64,000 nucleotides of DNA. Source: Sphingomonas sp. HMP6 (GTDB lineage: Bacteria; Pseudomonadota; Alphaproteobacteria; Sphingomonadales; Sphingomonadaceae). Below the pieces are notes generated by a model that searched no databases, was not told the origin of the DNA, and saw only the letters and a program-made list of their open reading frames with translations. The position numbers were made by a program, and so were the translations under genes. Shown piece by piece: positions 3,812-50,595 of this stretch; within the stretch, counting starts at the first letter, position 1, and each line of letters starts with the position of its first letter. The DNA lies in assembly GCF_013374095.1 (NCBI RefSeq), contig NZ_AP022672.1, forward strand, positions 62,001 through 126,000. The letters run 5' to 3'.

Positions 3812-4363
3812 ATGTTCCAGTCATCAAAGAACCGCTCGAAATCAAGAGAGATACGTGCCGTTCCGCCGCTGGATGCAGCGGCGCTCGATCGGCTCGCGCT
3901 GCGCTATGTCGAGCGGTTCGCGACGACGCGACGGCGATTGTCCGAGTATTTGATGCGCAAGATTCGCGAACGCGGCTGGGACGGACCACCGGCGGACCCG
4001 ATCGCGCTGGCCGAGAAGCTCGCGGAGCTCGGCTATATCGACGACCGCGCCTTTGGTGAGGCGCGCGCGGCGGCAATGGGCCGGCGGGGGTTGGGCAAGC
4101 GCCGCGTGACGGGCGCGCTGCAGCAGGCCGGGCTGGTCGAGGAGGATCGCGAGGCGATCGTGCCCGCAGTCGAGGATCGCGCGCTGGAAACCGCGATGGC
4201 GTTCGCACGGCGGCGGCGGATCGGGCCGTTCGCTTCCGTCCGCGCCGAACGCCCCGAGCGCGAGAAGCAGATCGCCGCGATGATTCGCGGCGGGCATGAT
4301 TTCACGCTGGCACGCCGGATCGCCGCGCTCGGGCCGGGGGAAGCGCTGGAAATGGGCGAATGA
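3812..4363 (+). CDS. recX: RecX family regulatory protein
   Basis: A 183-residue basic helical protein with the RecX three-helix repeats: ALRYVERFATTRRRLSEYL, then LAEKLAELGYIDDRAFGEARAAA, then GRRGLGKRRVTGALQQAGL. RecX binds RecA filaments and limits recombinase and SOS activity. The ATG at 3812 is chosen over an upstream in-frame ATG at 3737 because family similarity begins only after it and the extra leader overlaps the divergent ligase promoter region. recA is not in the window, so the usual recA-recX pairing is not kept here. Confidence 0.85.
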   Translation: MFQSSKNRSKSREIRAVPPLDAAALDRLALRYVERFATTRRRLSEYLMRKIRERGWDGPPADPIALAEKLAELGYIDDRAFGEARAAAMGRRGLGKRRVTGALQQAGLVEEDREAIVPAVEDRALETAMAFARRRRIGPFASVRAERPEREKQIAAMIRGGHDFTLARRIAALGPGEALEMGE

Positions 4364-45139: not shown

Positions 45140-45544
45140 ATGTTCGACGTCGCATCCTCCGAGGTGATCCTGCTGGGGGTCGTGGCCTTGCTTGTCATCC
45201 CGCCCAAGGATTTGCCGAAGGCGATGCGGGTTGCCGGGCATTGGGTTGGCAAGGTGCGCGGCGTCGCCACGCATTTCCGATCGGGCTTCGATACGATGCT
45301 GCGCGAATCCGAGCTGCAGGAAATGGAAAAGAAGTGGGCGGCGGAGAACGCGCGGATCATGCGTGAGCATCCGCCCGAGCCGGTGCAGATGCTCCCGATG
45401 GCAGGTCCGCCCGCGGATGCGCATGCACCGGACGATGTCGGCGATCCCGCGCCGGTGATGACCGAGCAGCCGGTGGTCGCTGCCGCGCCTGTGGAGGCCG
45501 AGGTCGAGGTGACGAAATCGGCGACCGGGGCGCACCAAGCGTGA
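45140..45544 (+). CDS. tatB: Twin-arginine translocase subunit TatB
   Basis: 134 residues. N-terminal helix MFDVASSEVILLGVVALLV, IPPKDLPKAMRVAGHWVGK typical of TatB, then an amphipathic helix and an Ala/Pro/Val-rich tail. ATG 45140 is the family start; the longer frame upstream is a tatA shadow. GTGA overlap with tatC. Confidence 0.93.
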   Translation: MFDVASSEVILLGVVALLVIPPKDLPKAMRVAGHWVGKVRGVATHFRSGFDTMLRESELQEMEKKWAAENARIMREHPPEPVQMLPMAGPPADAHAPDDVGDPAPVMTEQPVVAAAPVEAEVEVTKSATGAHQA

Positions 45545-46320
45545 ACGCGCCGGTTGACGATCTCGAGGCGAGTCGCGCGCCGTTGCTCGATCATCTGATC
45601 GAACTTCGCAAACGCCTGTTTTTCTGCATCGTGTCGGTGTTCGTCACGCTGATCGGGACCTATTATTATTCGCGTGAGATCTTCACGGTGCTGGTCCACC
45701 CGCTGCTCGAGGCGGGGCAGAAGCGGATCGTGACGATCGGCGTGTTCGATGGCTTCTTCGTGCAGTTGAAGGTTGCCTTGTTTGCCGCGCTGATGATTTC
45801 GTTCCCGATCATCGCGAACCAGCTATGGGGCTTCGTGTCGCCCGGCCTGTATCGCAAAGAAAAGCGTGCGTTGCTGCCGTTTTTGTTCGCCACGCCGGTT
45901 TTGTTCACGGTCGGCGCGATGCTCGCGTATTTCGTCGCGATTCCGTCGGCTTTGAAATTTTTCCTCAGCTTTCAGGGAAGCCTTGGCGGAGTCGAGCAGG
46001 AGGCGCTGACCTCGGTCGCGAGCTATCTCGATTTCGTCATGCAATTCCTGTTCGCATTCGGCATCGCATTCCTGCTGCCGATCTTGCTTATGCTGGTGGA
46101 GCGTGCCGGCCTGGTGTCGCGCAAGCAACTTGTTGCGGGGCGGCGCTATGCGATCGTCGGATGTTTCGCGGTCGCGCTGGTGCTTGCGCCACCTGACGCA
46201 GGCTCGATGATCATGCTCGCGATCCCGCTGGTGGCGCTGTACGAACTCGCACTCATCGCGATCTGGTTCACCGAGCGCCGGCGCGTCATGGATGACCCGA
46301 CCGATCTGGTCGAAGGCTGA
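45541..46320 (+). CDS. tatC: Twin-arginine translocase subunit TatC
   Basis: 259 residues with six membrane helices. Recognisable: APLLDHLIELRKRLFFCI, FWGFVSPGLY-type loop (LWGFVSPGLYRKEKRALLPF), FAFGIAFLLPILLMLVERAG and the APPDAGSMIMLAIPL region. TatC binds the RR signal peptide with TatB. GTG start inside the tatB stop. Confidence 0.95.
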   Translation: MNAPVDDLEASRAPLLDHLIELRKRLFFCIVSVFVTLIGTYYYSREIFTVLVHPLLEAGQKRIVTIGVFDGFFVQLKVALFAALMISFPIIANQLWGFVSPGLYRKEKRALLPFLFATPVLFTVGAMLAYFVAIPSALKFFLSFQGSLGGVEQEALTSVASYLDFVMQFLFAFGIAFLLPILLMLVERAGLVSRKQLVAGRRYAIVGCFAVALVLAPPDAGSMIMLAIPLVALYELALIAIWFTERRRVMDDPTDLVEG

Positions 46321-46566: not shown

Positions 46567-46591
46567 AATGCGCGACGCCGCGCTTCGTTCC
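46567..46591 (-). promoter_or_regulatory. Possible EcfG-type promoter of entericidin gene
   Basis: Minus strand GGAAC, 16 bases, CATT, about 53 bases before the entericidin start. The -35 is perfect; the -10 differs from CGTT at one base. Proposed on sequence alone. Confidence 0.4.
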
Positions 46592-46628: not shown

Positions 46629-46687
46629 AAAAAAATTGGACCCGGACGCGCCACCGAGGGGGGGAGGGGGCGGCGCGACCGGGTCCA
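46629..46687 (-). terminator. Strong Rho-independent terminator of the candidate RNA
   Basis: GGACCCGGTCGCGCC pairs with GGCGCGTCCGGGTCC (one mismatch, plus one flanking T-A pair), loop 19 nt, then AA and seven T on the minus strand. The T run exists only in the minus direction, so the terminator is directional and belongs to a transcript coming from 46.7 kb. Confidence 0.75.
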
Positions 46688-46732
46688 TGTCTTGGATAGC
46701 GAGAGCGGGGGGGCATAAATTCGCTATCCGAA
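46629..46732 (-). ncRNA. Candidate stress-induced small RNA with C-rich loops
   Basis: About 104 nt on the minus strand with no convincing ORF. It begins a few bases after a perfect EcfG-type promoter (46739-46763). Hairpin 1: GGATAGCGA (46729-46721 side) pairs with TCGCTATCC, with an 18-nt loop holding seven consecutive C. Hairpin 2 (46638-46686) is the terminator stem, with a 19-nt loop of C5-T-C7 type. C-rich loops suit pairing with G-rich ribosome binding sites. The same design (stress sigma promoter, C-rich loop, terminator) is known for GsrN of Caulobacter. It is bounded upstream by the phyP terminator. Alternative: a terminated leader of entericidin. Confidence 0.62.
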
Positions 46733-46738
46733 GATGAA

Positions 46739-46763
46739 AACGGTCTGCGCGCCGCCGGGTTCC
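46739..46763 (-). promoter_or_regulatory. Perfect EcfG-type promoter GGAAC-N16-CGTT
   Basis: On the minus strand GGAAC (46763-46759), exactly 16 bases, CGTT (46742-46739). This is the consensus for the alphaproteobacterial general stress sigma factor EcfG. It points into the 46629-46732 region, away from phyP, and sits 2.4 kb from nepR. Confidence 0.72.
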
Positions 46764-46766
46764 GGG

Positions 46767-46798
46767 AAAAAAACGATTTTTTGAAGAATCTTTTTTTT
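46767..46798 (-). terminator. A/T-rich terminator after phyP
   Basis: On the minus strand A8-GATT, 8-nt loop, AATC-G-T7, starting 11 bases past the phyP stop. In a GC-rich genome such A and T runs are rare outside terminators; it could act in both directions. Confidence 0.65.
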
Positions 46799-46808
46799 AC
46801 GTTTCAAG

Positions 46809-48395
46809 TCAATCACGTCCGGTGACCGCAACGGAAATCTCGTACGCGCCGACCAATGGATCGTAGTGTAGCTTGGAGCGCAATTGCCGCGACAAGCCCT
46901 CAATCACGCGGCCATAGCGTTCCGCGATCAGCGTGCGCATCGCGTCGTCATCGATCAGGGCAGGTGAATTGACACGCAGGACGGCGCGCGCGTCGCTCTC
47001 GTCCGGCCCGACCGATATGCGGATTTGCGCAGCCGGATTTACCGTCATTGCCAACTCAACGATTTCGGTAATGATAAAAGCGATGGCGATCGCCACGTCC
47101 TGATTGACCAGATACGGTTGCACATCGATCGCGATGCCGATCGGTGAATCATCGGGCGCAGTCGCGCGAATGTTCGAGGCCAGTTCGCCCAGGACCGAGC
47201 GTAACGACAGACCGCGATTTTCCTCGAGCTCTGCAAAATGGTTGCGATGGACGACCGCGAGCGCATCGACGCGCCGCTGGATCGAGGCATAAGCATGGGT
47301 CGCCTCGACACTGCGGGCGGCGCGCGCGTGGAAATTGATGAGGCTGGAAATGACCTGCAGGTTGTTCTTTACGCGGTGATGGACTTCACGCGTCAATTTG
47401 GTCTGGCGGATCAGCCCTTCGGCAAGCCCGGCCTCATGCGCCGCGACCGTGCGGCTAATCGCGCGAAAGGTTTCGCCAAGATCGCGGATTTCTATCGCAG
47501 GCAGGCTGCGCATGGTTCCTGGATCGACCTCCTCGCCCGGCACAAAATGCGCTACGCTGGTCCGCAACTGCCGCAGCGGGCGGATCAACAGGCGATCTAC
47601 GACGAACCAGCCGATACCGGCGGCCGCGGCCCACATTATGATCGGCAGGATCAGCGCGACCAGCACGGGCGAGGTGATCGGCAAGCTGCGCACGCGCGTC
47701 GTCAGCGTGATGTCGCCGATGCCGATCGGCATGCTGAGCGCGGCGCGGCGTTCCAGCGGGCCGCTCCGCGCAAGTTCTGTGAGCGACAGTACATCATCAT
47801 CAAGCGTGAGGCGCGCTTCATAGGGTTGGGCATCGCCGCTTGGCTTCGCGGTTGCGGCAAGCACGGTAGCAGGAAAGAATGCCGCTGCGCGCGTCCGGCC
47901 GGTCGTGCTGGTCGTCGCCAACGTCAGGCCGCGCCCAGGGTGCAAGCGCGCGGCGATCGGCGAATCGGTTCGTGAGATCGCGGGGCTGAGCGCGACCGGC
48001 AGACGTTGACCACAAATCACCTGGCCACGAGCATCGGTGATGGAGAAGCGCGTGCCGGCGGGGGCCTGCGGTGCGAACACCCCTTGCGCGCGGGCGCAGC
48101 TCGGCGCGTCGGCAGGATCCGCCTCAAGCGCGTTGAGCGCTACGCGGAGCGCGGTCATATCGCCGACGAGTTCGATCGCGAGATTGCGCGCGCTCTCGGT
48201 GGCAGTGATGCGCATTTGTCCGCGGGTCGCGTCGTCCGCCATCGCGGCCGTGCGGAGCGTCGCGAAAAAAGCAATGATCGCAAGCGGCAACAACGCCGCG
48301 CTCAAGATCAGAAAGACTTTGGCACCCGTAGGAATGCTGCCGAAACGATCGGACAAGGCGCGAGCGGCGGGGGTATCGCCGACCAACTGATTCAC
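46809..48395 (-). CDS. phyP: PhyP-like sensor histidine kinase family protein (HisKA_2, degenerate ATPase domain)
   Basis: 528 residues. Two membrane helices (about 26-46 and 250-275) enclose a periplasmic domain; then a HAMP-like linker and a HisKA_2 dimerisation domain with VHHRVKNNLQVISSLINFHA (phospho-acceptor His340). The ATPase domain is abnormal: the N-box reads ITEIVELAMTVN instead of NELVTNALKH, and the glycine boxes are missing (LRVNSPALIDDDAM). It may therefore be a phosphatase or non-kinase partner of PhyR. In Sphingomonas sp. Fr1, PhyP, encoded at the phyR-nepR locus, is a negative regulator of PhyR. GTG 48395 is seven bases after nepR; the long frame upstream is a shadow. Confidence 0.85.
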   Translation of the reverse strand: MNQLVGDTPAARALSDRFGSIPTGAKVFLILSAALLPLAIIAFFATLRTAAMADDATRGQMRITATESARNLAIELVGDMTALRVALNALEADPADAPSCARAQGVFAPQAPAGTRFSITDARGQVICGQRLPVALSPAISRTDSPIAARLHPGRGLTLATTSTTGRTRAAAFFPATVLAATAKPSGDAQPYEARLTLDDDVLSLTELARSGPLERRAALSMPIGIGDITLTTRVRSLPITSPVLVALILPIIMWAAAAGIGWFVVDRLLIRPLRQLRTSVAHFVPGEEVDPGTMRSLPAIEIRDLGETFRAISRTVAAHEAGLAEGLIRQTKLTREVHHRVKNNLQVISSLINFHARAARSVEATHAYASIQRRVDALAVVHRNHFAELEENRGLSLRSVLGELASNIRATAPDDSPIGIAIDVQPYLVNQDVAIAIAFIITEIVELAMTVNPAAQIRISVGPDESDARAVLRVNSPALIDDDAMRTLIAERYGRVIEGLSRQLRSKLHYDPLVGAYEISVAVTGRD

Positions 48396-48402
48396 CGGAC
48401 GA

Positions 48403-48579
48403 TCAGTCCAGCTTGCCGAGGAGATCCAGCATTTCGGGCGGAATCGCTTCTTCGACCGTGCGTTGATACACGGTTCGCAAGGCCGCGCCCATGTCGCGGT
48501 CCTTGCCCTGAGCCTTCGCGCCGGTGCCGACGGGCCGCGCCGTACCCGGCTTTTTCGAAGAATCGTCGCCCGAACGCAA
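48403..48579 (-). CDS. nepR: Anti-sigma factor NepR
   Basis: 58 residues ending in DMGAALRTVYQRTVEEAIPP and EMLDLLGKLD, the two conserved NepR helices. NepR binds EcfG in unstressed cells and switches to phosphorylated PhyR under stress. The only usable start after the in-frame stop is TTG 48579, with AGGGGGA just upstream; this start and the small size make it easy to miss. It is divergent from phyR and followed by phyP after seven bases, so nepR-phyP form one transcript. Confidence 0.9.
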   Translation of the reverse strand: MRSGDDSSKKPGTARPVGTGAKAQGKDRDMGAALRTVYQRTVEEAIPPEMLDLLGKLD

Positions 48580-48722: not shown

Positions 48723-48836
48723 ACGTTCGATGCGAAATAAAGTTCCGATCGTTTCGGGGCTATAAACGCGTTGCATAAGCGGGGGGCCGCTTCCACAAGG
48801 TCCCTCAAATCATACCCAAGGGAGACCCCGACAGTC

Positions 48837-49643
48837 ATGTCGCTAGGACAGCAGCTTGCCCCCCATCTTCCGTTCCTGCGCCGCTATGGTCGCGCACTGA
48901 CTGGCAGCCAGACGCATGGCGACCGTTACGTACGCGCCACGCTCGAGGCGATCGTTGCGGCTCCCGAGGAATTTCCGCGCGACGTTGATCCCCGCCTGGG
49001 ATTGTATCGCACGTTTCATGCGATCTGGAACTCGACCAATTATGACGAGACGCCAGAATCGATGAGCGCGAGCCTGGACGATGGGCAGGAATCGATTGCC
49101 CGGGCGCGGCTTGCGCGGATGACGCCGCTGTCGCGTCAGGCGCTGTTGCTGACCGCGATGGAGGGCTTCACGCCCGAGGACGCCGGTTATCTGATTGATG
49201 TCGAGGTCGCCGAGGTCGATTCGCTCGTTGCCGAGGCGCTGGCCGAAATCGAACAGCAAACGCGTGCGCGCGTGCTGATCATCGAGGACGAGCCGATCAT
49301 TGCGATGGATATCGAGACGATCGTCCGCGACCTCGGGCATGAAGTGACCGGCGTCGCGGTAACGCGCGACGAAGCGGTCGCGCTGGCGATGGAGGATCGT
49401 CCCGGTCTCGTGCTCGCCGACATTCAGTTGGCCGACGACAGCTCGGGCATCGACGCGGTCAAGGACATCCTGGCCGAGTTCGAAGTGCCGGTGATCTTCA
49501 TCACGGCATTCCCGGAGCGCCTGTTGACCGGCGAGCGTCCCGAGCCAACTTTCCTGATCACCAAGCCGTTCCAGCGTTCGACGGTCAAGGCCGCGATCGC
49601 GCAGGCATTGTTCTTCGACCAGGCGACCGTTCCCGCCGTTTGA
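48837..49643 (+). CDS. phyR: General stress response regulator PhyR
   Basis: 268 residues. The N-terminal half is a sigma-factor mimic (sigma2- and sigma4-like: LPFLRRYGRALTGSQTHGDR, LSRQALLLTAMEGFTPEDAG) without DNA-binding function; the C-terminal receiver has VLIIEDEPIIAMDIE, phospho-acceptor Asp195 in LADIQLADDSSGID, FITAFPERL and the Lys in ITKPF. Phosphorylation exposes the mimic, which captures NepR and frees EcfG. AAGGGAG lies about 12 bases before the ATG. I did not find a clean EcfG promoter in its direction. Confidence 0.96.
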   Translation: MSLGQQLAPHLPFLRRYGRALTGSQTHGDRYVRATLEAIVAAPEEFPRDVDPRLGLYRTFHAIWNSTNYDETPESMSASLDDGQESIARARLARMTPLSRQALLLTAMEGFTPEDAGYLIDVEVAEVDSLVAEALAEIEQQTRARVLIIEDEPIIAMDIETIVRDLGHEVTGVAVTRDEAVALAMEDRPGLVLADIQLADDSSGIDAVKDILAEFEVPVIFITAFPERLLTGERPEPTFLITKPFQRSTVKAAIAQALFFDQATVPAV

Positions 49644-49718: not shown

Positions 49719-49862
49719 ATGGCAGACGAAGACCGCATTGAAGTTACCGCACAGGAAGCGCGCGGCGGCGTAACGCCGCATGTGACTCGCTATGTGCTCG
49801 GCATCTCGCTCATGCTGGTCGTGGTGATCTTTGCCGCGTTGCTGATATTCTTCCAGCGTTGA
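49719..49862 (+). CDS. 47-residue single-pass membrane protein between phyR and ecfG
   Basis: A polar N-terminus (MADEDRIEVTAQEARGGVTP) is followed by one membrane helix (YVLGISLMLVVVIFAALLIF) and FQR. Below the usual gene-finder size, but with a clean helix, biased codons like its neighbours and an EcfG-like promoter 50 bases upstream. No known family. Its place suggests a stress-linked role; an unrelated small protein is equally possible. Confidence 0.6.
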   Translation: MADEDRIEVTAQEARGGVTPHVTRYVLGISLMLVVVIFAALLIFFQR

Positions 49863-49953: not shown

Positions 49954-50595
49954 ATGAGCGACGCATTCGATCAAGACGAGGACGATGGCGCGCCCGAGAT
50001 CGTCGAGCACGTTTCGCTGTCGGACCCCGAGTTCAAGGCGCAATTGGCGCAGGTGATCCCGCATCTTCGCGCGTTCGGTCGGTCGCTTTCAGGCAATCGC
50101 GATCTTGCTGACGATTTGGTGCAGGAAACGCTGATGAAGGCATGGGCGGCGCGTTTGCGCTTCCAGGCGGGCACCAACATGCGCGCGTGGACGTTCATCA
50201 TCCTGCGCAACCTGTATCTGAGCCAGATGCGCCGCGCGCGTTTCAAGGGCGAGTGGGACGATCTGGTCGCGGACCGGATCCTTGCCGCACCCGCCAGCCA
50301 GGACAAGCATGTCGAGCTTGGCGATATGCAGCGCGCATTGCTGCATTTGCCGCAACCACAGCGCGAAGCGCTGATCCTGGTCGGTGCAGGCGGGTTCGCC
50401 TATGAAGAGGCGGCAGAAATCTGCGGTGTCGCGGTCGGCACGATCAAGAGCCGTGTGGCGCGCGGTCGTGTGGCGCTGGAAGCGGTAATGAACGATAATA
50501 CGCTCGCATCGCGTCGCACCCACTCCAACGAGCCCGGCATGTCCGCGCTCGACACGATCATGGACGAAGTCGACGAACTCAGTCGAAATCGTTGA
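49954..50595 (+). CDS. ecfG: General stress sigma factor EcfG
   Basis: 213 residues, ECF15-type sigma factor. Region 2: RAFGRSLSGNRDLADDLVQ-ETLMKAW and MRAWTFIILRNLYLSQMRR; region 4: LPQPQREALILVGAGGFAYEEAAEICGVAVGTIKSRVARGR, given in part. It directs transcription from GGAAC/CGTT promoters when NepR is removed. The stop directly abuts the end of a small ORF on the other strand. Confidence 0.95.
   Translation: MSDAFDQDEDDGAPEIVEHVSLSDPEFKAQLAQVIPHLRAFGRSLSGNRDLADDLVQETLMKAWAARLRFQAGTNMRAWTFIILRNLYLSQMRRARFKGEWDDLVADRILAAPASQDKHVELGDMQRALLHLPQPQREALILVGAGGFAYEEAAEICGVAVGTIKSRVARGRVALEAVMNDNTLASRRTHSNEPGMSALDTIMDEVDELSRNR

Follow-up and report, generated by a model that had tools for sequence, protein, structure and literature searches.

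A stretch of 64,000 nucleotides (nt) from Sphingomonas sp. HMP6 (contig NZ_AP022672.1, positions 62,001 to 126,000), here called the window, carries on its minus strand a small RNA gene of about 100 nt, with two hairpins whose loops are rich in C and an EcfG-type promoter, beside the genes phyR, nepR and ecfG of the general stress response. Our best reading, which we hold to be probable, is that this gene specifies an EcfG-dependent, trans-acting base-pairing RNA resembling the GsrN RNA of Caulobacter in action. Comparison among genomes indicates that it is a free-standing, non-coding structured gene; such comparison supports the gene and its promoter as firmly as it can, and structure and spread emerge from it too. 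We infer from the promoter that EcfG drives the RNA; binding of mRNA by the C-rich loops is suggested with less certainty by analogy, and GsrN-like working is plausible. In the mechanism we propose, PhyR would draw NepR off EcfG, RNA polymerase with sigma EcfG would start the RNA a few bases 5' of the first hairpin, and the second hairpin would end the transcript. The two loops, held open on covarying stems, would then pair with G-rich stretches of several mRNAs, most likely ribosome-binding sites or leaders, and alter translation or stability. The general stress response of sphingomonads would have in this RNA a post-transcriptional arm, one that probably tunes the reading of certain messages during stress.

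An earlier interpretation of this DNA, made from its letters alone (the sequence-only reading), had described on the minus strand a GGAAC-N16-CGTT motif, a 9-bp stem with a C7 loop, a stem with a C5-T-C7 loop and a T7 run, all of which were found in the sequence or its predicted fold (Table 1). The 105-nt RNA region folds at -54.7 kcal/mol, compared with a shuffle mean of -28.4 (standard deviation 3.12; z = -8.43), and none of 200 shuffles reached so low an energy; two of the C residues of C5-T-C7 are paired in the predicted fold. Judged from the -10 box, the 5' end should lie near 46733-46730, and the 3' end, with termination, is expected at the T run (46635-46629, minus strand) that is situated 3' of the second stem and has a counterpart of at least four T in the 9 nt 3' of the stem in 31/35 relatives. 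The genome holds a single copy. The absence of a convincing open reading frame (ORF), another point of the sequence-only reading, is borne out among these relatives, as the small ORFs lack conservation: of 35 sequences, 21 have an ATG immediately 5' of the C-run and 10 have the next ATG, and the length of the loop 1 C-run drifts from 6 to 9.

Conservation was assessed with a DNA search and two alignments. The search of 61 genomes matched 37, comprising 36 of the 37 same-genus genomes (one match each) and a genome of another family (G042), in which the match covers the promoter spacer only, without the hairpins; the unmatched same-genus genome, G007, is 84% complete. The first alignment holds the 35 full-length copies among the 36 same-genus copies; it is the basis of a covariance model, R1, and was not fitted to the R1 structure. 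It contains 23 consensus pairs, with 98.4% of cells paired and double-sided change in 11 pairs. The second alignment (model R2) holds 62 loci, namely the same 35, a further 25 from other genera and two more from same-genus genomes (L136 and L137). Because its fitting followed the R1 structure, this alignment is biased towards it. Double-sided change occurs in 23/23 of its pairs (9/9 in the 5' hairpin and 14/14 consensus pairs in the 3' hairpin), 97.7% of cells are paired, and the covariation measure is 0.437, where shuffles give 0.165 and slid structures 0.053-0.093. A search of other sphingomonads with a covariance model was a check that the sequence-only reading had itself asked for, and promoter, stems and C-rich loops proved to be kept, with strong covariation.

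The promoter pattern alone is not significant, with one match in 64 kb where 1.08 would be expected, so that no decision was possible from the window by itself; what lifts the promoter above chance is its conservation at a fixed place. In each of the 62 loci, a motif differing from GGAAC/CGTT in no more than two letters occupies the same place. Of the -35 boxes, 61 read GGAAC and one reads GAAAC; the -10 box is CGTT in 49, GGTT in six, TGTT in five and AGTT in two; the spacer is 16 nt in 52 and 17 nt in 10; and in 51 loci the stem begins 9 nt beyond the -10 box. Outside that place, the same strand of these loci contains the motif 55 times in 498,584 bases, which amounts to 0.002 expected per 20-nt placement. 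A pattern scan of named genomes, in which the pattern comprised loop and stem only, returned at least 120 stretches, one of them too near its end for the promoter check; among the matches listed, GGAAC-N16/17-NGTT preceded 117 of the 119 testable and GGAAC-N16-CATT the other two. Both boxes agree with the EcfG consensus published for sphingomonads, which is GGAAC-N16-CGTT with a flexible -10 (PMC7083833; papers are cited throughout for those parts of their text that were searched). The A/T-rich terminator that the sequence-only reading had placed after phyP did not hold up, since the predicted fold of the stretch is no more stable than those of its shuffles (-5.4 kcal/mol, z +0.58). A run of at least five A/T lies upstream of the -35 box, no more than 70 nt before the stem, in 52/62 loci (46764-46800 in the window). 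Such runs are present at that place also in most loci without a detected phyP, and may therefore belong to the promoter, perhaps as an upstream element.

The RNA appears from these models to belong mainly to the sphingomonad family, to be patchy within it and to occur hardly elsewhere in the class. R1 matched 87/296 genomes of the order at E<=0.01, of which the weakest matches are not members; of the 29 same-genus genomes listed, 28 matched. R2 matched 131/298 genomes of the family, in 49/96 genera, at E<=1e-3, a count that includes weak matches of a kind we discarded, and 111/298 genomes, in 38/96 sampled genera, at E<1e-6. Across the class, with strict filters, R2 matched 4/385 genomes: the window's own, one of the same genus, a weak family match of the discarded kind (G062) and a weak locus outside the family (G452). 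With laxer filters, 36 genomes with no or a weak earlier match gave nothing above 33.4 bits. Among the titles listed in the scan of named genomes, the genera include Sphingomonas, Sphingobium, Sphingomicrobium, Sphingosinicella, Sphingorhabdus, Stakelama, Hephaestia, Parasphingopyxis and Rhizorhapis.

Counts of promoter and synteny left out 13 of the 40 fetched loci (L119-L131), most of them weak matches to other kinds of structure. One of the 13, L131 (G282, same genus), is a copy truncated at the end of its contig; L057 is also truncated and was left out of both alignments. L119-L122 were rejected as members on inspection by eye, their hairpins lying just 3' of a coding end (near 4000 of the oriented locus) that presumably belongs to ahpC. 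In these loci of other genera, the C-rich-loop hairpin after a coding end constitutes a second, unrelated source of such structures in the family. L123 and L130 were likewise rejected by eye for their tandem C-rich hairpins, which lie near 3930-4100 of the oriented locus, have CTCCTCCCC-like loops and resemble, we assume, the multi-hairpin anti-Shine-Dalgarno RNAs of other alphaproteobacteria. The locus of G452, from another alphaproteobacterial family (L258:1500-1600, 39 bits), has two C-loop hairpins with no GGAAC promoter visible by eye, and is possibly a case of convergence.

The two loops are the part of the RNA that would meet its targets. Of the 62 loci, 60 have at least six C in loop 1, and the number for loop 2 is likewise 60; loop 1 contains CCCGC in 60 and loop 2 contains CCTCC in 52, a core that would pair with GGAGG. 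The C-rich loop of GsrN base-pairs with G-rich mRNA leaders (PMC5869019), and pairing with G-rich ribosome sites is therefore the natural reading here. More tentatively, and with odds that we place somewhat below even, the two anti-Shine-Dalgarno-like loops may form a two-handed translational brake on many targets, specific to sphingomonads, switched on by EcfG and of an origin separate from that of GsrN. The sequence-only reading had proposed searching both loops against G-rich ribosome sites, and no recurrent target emerged. For each loop, predicted duplexes with the phyR, ecfG, entericidin and tatC leaders of same-genus loci were compared in energy with mononucleotide shuffles; loop 2 with the phyR leader leaned weakly below them (mean z -0.98, 9/34 under -2). 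In the window's own genome GCGGGGGG stood before ATG 39 times against 15 in the control, an excess that ordinary Shine-Dalgarno bias could explain; of 30 loci fetched, 16 were read, in one orientation. Among 35 ORFs of at least 50 aa with AGCGGGGGG, the single matching pair was one site listed twice. This target search was narrow, and therefore its failure says little.

Several observations nevertheless weigh against an EcfG-dependent base-pairing RNA. Its transcription is itself deduced from sequence. In the duplex comparison the leaders of ecfG, entericidin and tatC were at or above shuffles, and that of phyR leaned only weakly with loop 1 (mean z -0.85, 3/35 under -2). The katG start regions of 21 same-genus loci gave no loop energy below z -1.4, and AGCGGGGGG before ATG in 12 genomes numbered 70 against 52 in the control, with no recurrent gene. 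Many relatives have a poor T run (26/35 show 3 to 5 T among the 9 nt), so that termination may be leaky or of another kind. Finally, a complete same-genus genome (G261) and many genomes of the family are without the RNA.

The genes around the RNA (Table 1) bear on the alternatives. In the same-genus loci a PhyP-like homologue lies upstream on the same strand in 36/36, phyR and ecfG are near the RNA in 35/36 (L038 is cut by a contig end), and entericidin downstream and a convergent tatC are each found in 33/36 (L057 is cut just after the RNA). The sequence-only reading was thus right to place the unit next to the stress response locus; its distance of 2.4 kb to nepR requires correction, as about 1.7 kb separate the end of nepR from the start of the RNA. 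The 25 loci of other genera have phyP in 12, tatC in 23 and entericidin in 20 (19 by tblastn and L111 by ORF), and in 13 of them the RNA is away from the stress locus, as judged within 4 kb. Among the named loci listed that extend far enough, entericidin occurs within 600 nt in 77/99, tatC in 89/99 and phyR upstream in 70/80. By these counts in other genera and named loci, the link of the RNA to tatC and entericidin reaches further than its link to the stress locus. Between phyR and ecfG, a 47-aa ORF (49719-49862, plus strand) encodes one likely membrane helix and has no Pfam match.

Table 1. Positions of the RNA, its parts and the neighbouring features in the window.
Feature	Position	Strand	Basis
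Small RNA, ~100 nt	46629..46733	-	Fold, covariation (35 + 62 sequences), single copy
5' hairpin, 9 bp (46729-46721 / 46702-46694; loop C7 46713-46707)	46694..46729	-	Fold z -4.33
3' hairpin, terminator-like (46687-46669 / 46655-46637; loop C5-T-C7 46670-46658)	46629..46687	-	Fold z -8.06
Putative EcfG-type promoter of RNA, GGAAC-N16-CGTT	46739..46763	-	Same place in 62/62 loci
Putative separate EcfG-type promoter of entericidin, GGAAC-N16-CATT	46567..46591	-	32/36 same-genus loci
Entericidin-like lipoprotein gene, 44 aa	46380..46514	-	PF08085, 29.1 bits
tatC, convergent	45541..46320	+	PF00902, 224 bits
PhyP-like HisKA_2/HWE kinase gene, upstream, start approximate	46809..48403	-	PF07568, PF07536
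nepR	48403..48579	-	PF18557 (48579-48406), 26.0 bits vs cut-off 25.7
phyR	48771..49643	+	PF22029, PF22233, PF00072
ecfG-type sigma factor gene	49954..50595	+	PF08281, PF04542 (sigma-70-type factor)

The same-strand position of entericidin downstream of the RNA in most same-genus loci, together with the imperfect T run in many relatives, would suit an RNA that is only the 5' leader, or attenuator, of the entericidin mRNA, with the hairpins controlling read-through. We consider this very unlikely, because in 32/36 same-genus loci (31 CATT and one GATT) entericidin has a promoter of its own, situated after the RNA and ahead of the entericidin start codon, and because four loci (L034, L098, L099 and L100) carry the RNA followed by a convergent tatC, with no entericidin-like ORF found. 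The sequence-only reading had named proof of such a leader as what would overturn it, and on these two grounds that objection fails. In Sphingomonas melonis Fr1, the entry for #1442, a 'Predicted small secreted protein', gives GGAACGAATGGCCCGACCGATCATT (GGAAC-N16-CATT) with the values 30 and -4.7 (PMC6599016), which on our reading are the distance to the gene and the log2 fold change in an ecfG mutant. We infer that #1442 is the counterpart of the window's entericidin gene because of its promoter type and its number near those of phyR (#1445) and ecfG (#1447) (PMC6599016); its site, of the same kind and 30 nt upstream, also argues against a leader. Co-regulation of entericidin, which the sequence-only reading had suggested, thereby has published backing in Fr1, and also in Sphingopyxis granuli, where ecnAB appears among the genes under direct control of the stress response (PMC7083833). 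A 9-base complement, noticed by eye, that the window's entericidin leader shows to the 3' arm of stem 1 is absent from the relatives L061 and L066 and was taken as chance. It is more improbable still that the RNA is the 3' end of a nepR-phyP transcript, in which the hairpins would end or protect the message and have no independent life. The constant PhyP-like gene upstream on the same strand in same-genus loci would accord with this, but the promoter keeps a fixed distance in 62/62 loci, and unit and promoter persist in the 13/25 loci of other genera without a detected phyP.

A different role for the same RNA would be that of a sponge, in which the C-rich loops occupy G-rich RNA or an RNA-binding protein and not mRNA leaders. 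RNA sponges are known in Caulobacter (PMC12559287), a recurrent mRNA target was not found, and the drift in length of the loop 1 C-run suits a binder of low specificity. The conserved CCCGC of loop 1 (60/62) and CCTCC of loop 2 (52/62) nevertheless look like pairing sequences, GsrN pairs with mRNA leaders through a similar loop (PMC5869019), and little can be drawn from the failure of so narrow a target search. We therefore regard a sponge as unlikely, if less so than a leader or a transcript end, and retain an EcfG-dependent RNA that would pair with messages.

The studies of the sphingomonad EcfG regulon consulted here report coding genes (PMC6599016, PMC7083833). Some genes, including flagellar clusters, rise on removal of EcfG, which has been ascribed to indirect effects (PMC7083833, PMC6599016); a negative arm of this sort might be supplied by a conserved RNA that has an EcfG promoter and lies next to the core locus. 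EcfG mutants have been published for Sphingomonas melonis Fr1 and Sphingopyxis granuli TFA, in which the RNA is directly testable. The RNA is apparently undescribed, as the sequence-only reading had supposed. No family of Rfam 15 matched the window or seven related loci at gathering, and its description was not found in the open full-text literature, supplements and subscription papers being outside this scope, nor in the searched parts of PMC6599016, PMC7083833, PMC5869019, PMC8103513, PMC6970203, PMC6563040, PMC13414033, PMC12559287, PMC11109978 and PMC8632094. It would add an RNA family, present in some 38/96 sampled genera at E<1e-6, that Rfam 15 does not hold.

Known RNAs resemble it in part. 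The actinobacterial 6C RNA (RF01066) and Scr3202 (RF02833) also carry a C run in the loop of each of two hairpins and gave full-length, sub-threshold matches (window scores against gathering of 18.7/47 and 35.5/52 bits); as they belong to another phylum, the likeness is likely convergent. The alphaproteobacterial ar14 (RF02344), ar7 (RF02342) and CcsR1 (RF02791) have C-rich, anti-Shine-Dalgarno-like stretches in common with it, with best scores against gathering of 31.6/58.8 (L115), 16.6/60 and 15/65.3 (L041), respectively; with an E limit of 10, ar14 and CcsR1 were absent from the matches of the window, and CC1840 scored 19.2 bits there against a gathering threshold of 50. SuhB of Sphingopyxis granuli is a base-pairing small RNA from the same family of bacteria, whose action on an mRNA leader involves Hfq, but it is 61 nt long and raised at high growth rate (PMC6563040); the Rfam suhB model had no match at gathering in the window and seven related loci, nor any among the sub-threshold matches.

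The closest parallel in action is GsrN (PMC5869019), which we compared by description only. Both RNAs have an EcfG-type promoter and a C-rich loop on the 5' hairpin, and GsrN homologues typically lie near ecfG, nepR and phyR (PMC5869019), as this RNA does in same-genus loci; in these respects the GsrN-like logic put forward by the sequence-only reading stands. It does not seem to extend to the GsrN target katG, in whose leaders (21 same-genus regions) a G tract matching the loops was not found, and the sphingomonad RNA differs also in its second C-rich loop, on the 3' hairpin. Erythrobacter litoralis served as an out-group without an apparent gsrN-like gene (PMC5869019). We claim no identity with GsrN, relative to which the origin of this RNA appears separate or untraceable. 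If a two-loop brake of this kind does operate, it would give sphingomonads what GsrN gives Caulobacter: a post-transcriptional arm of the stress response.
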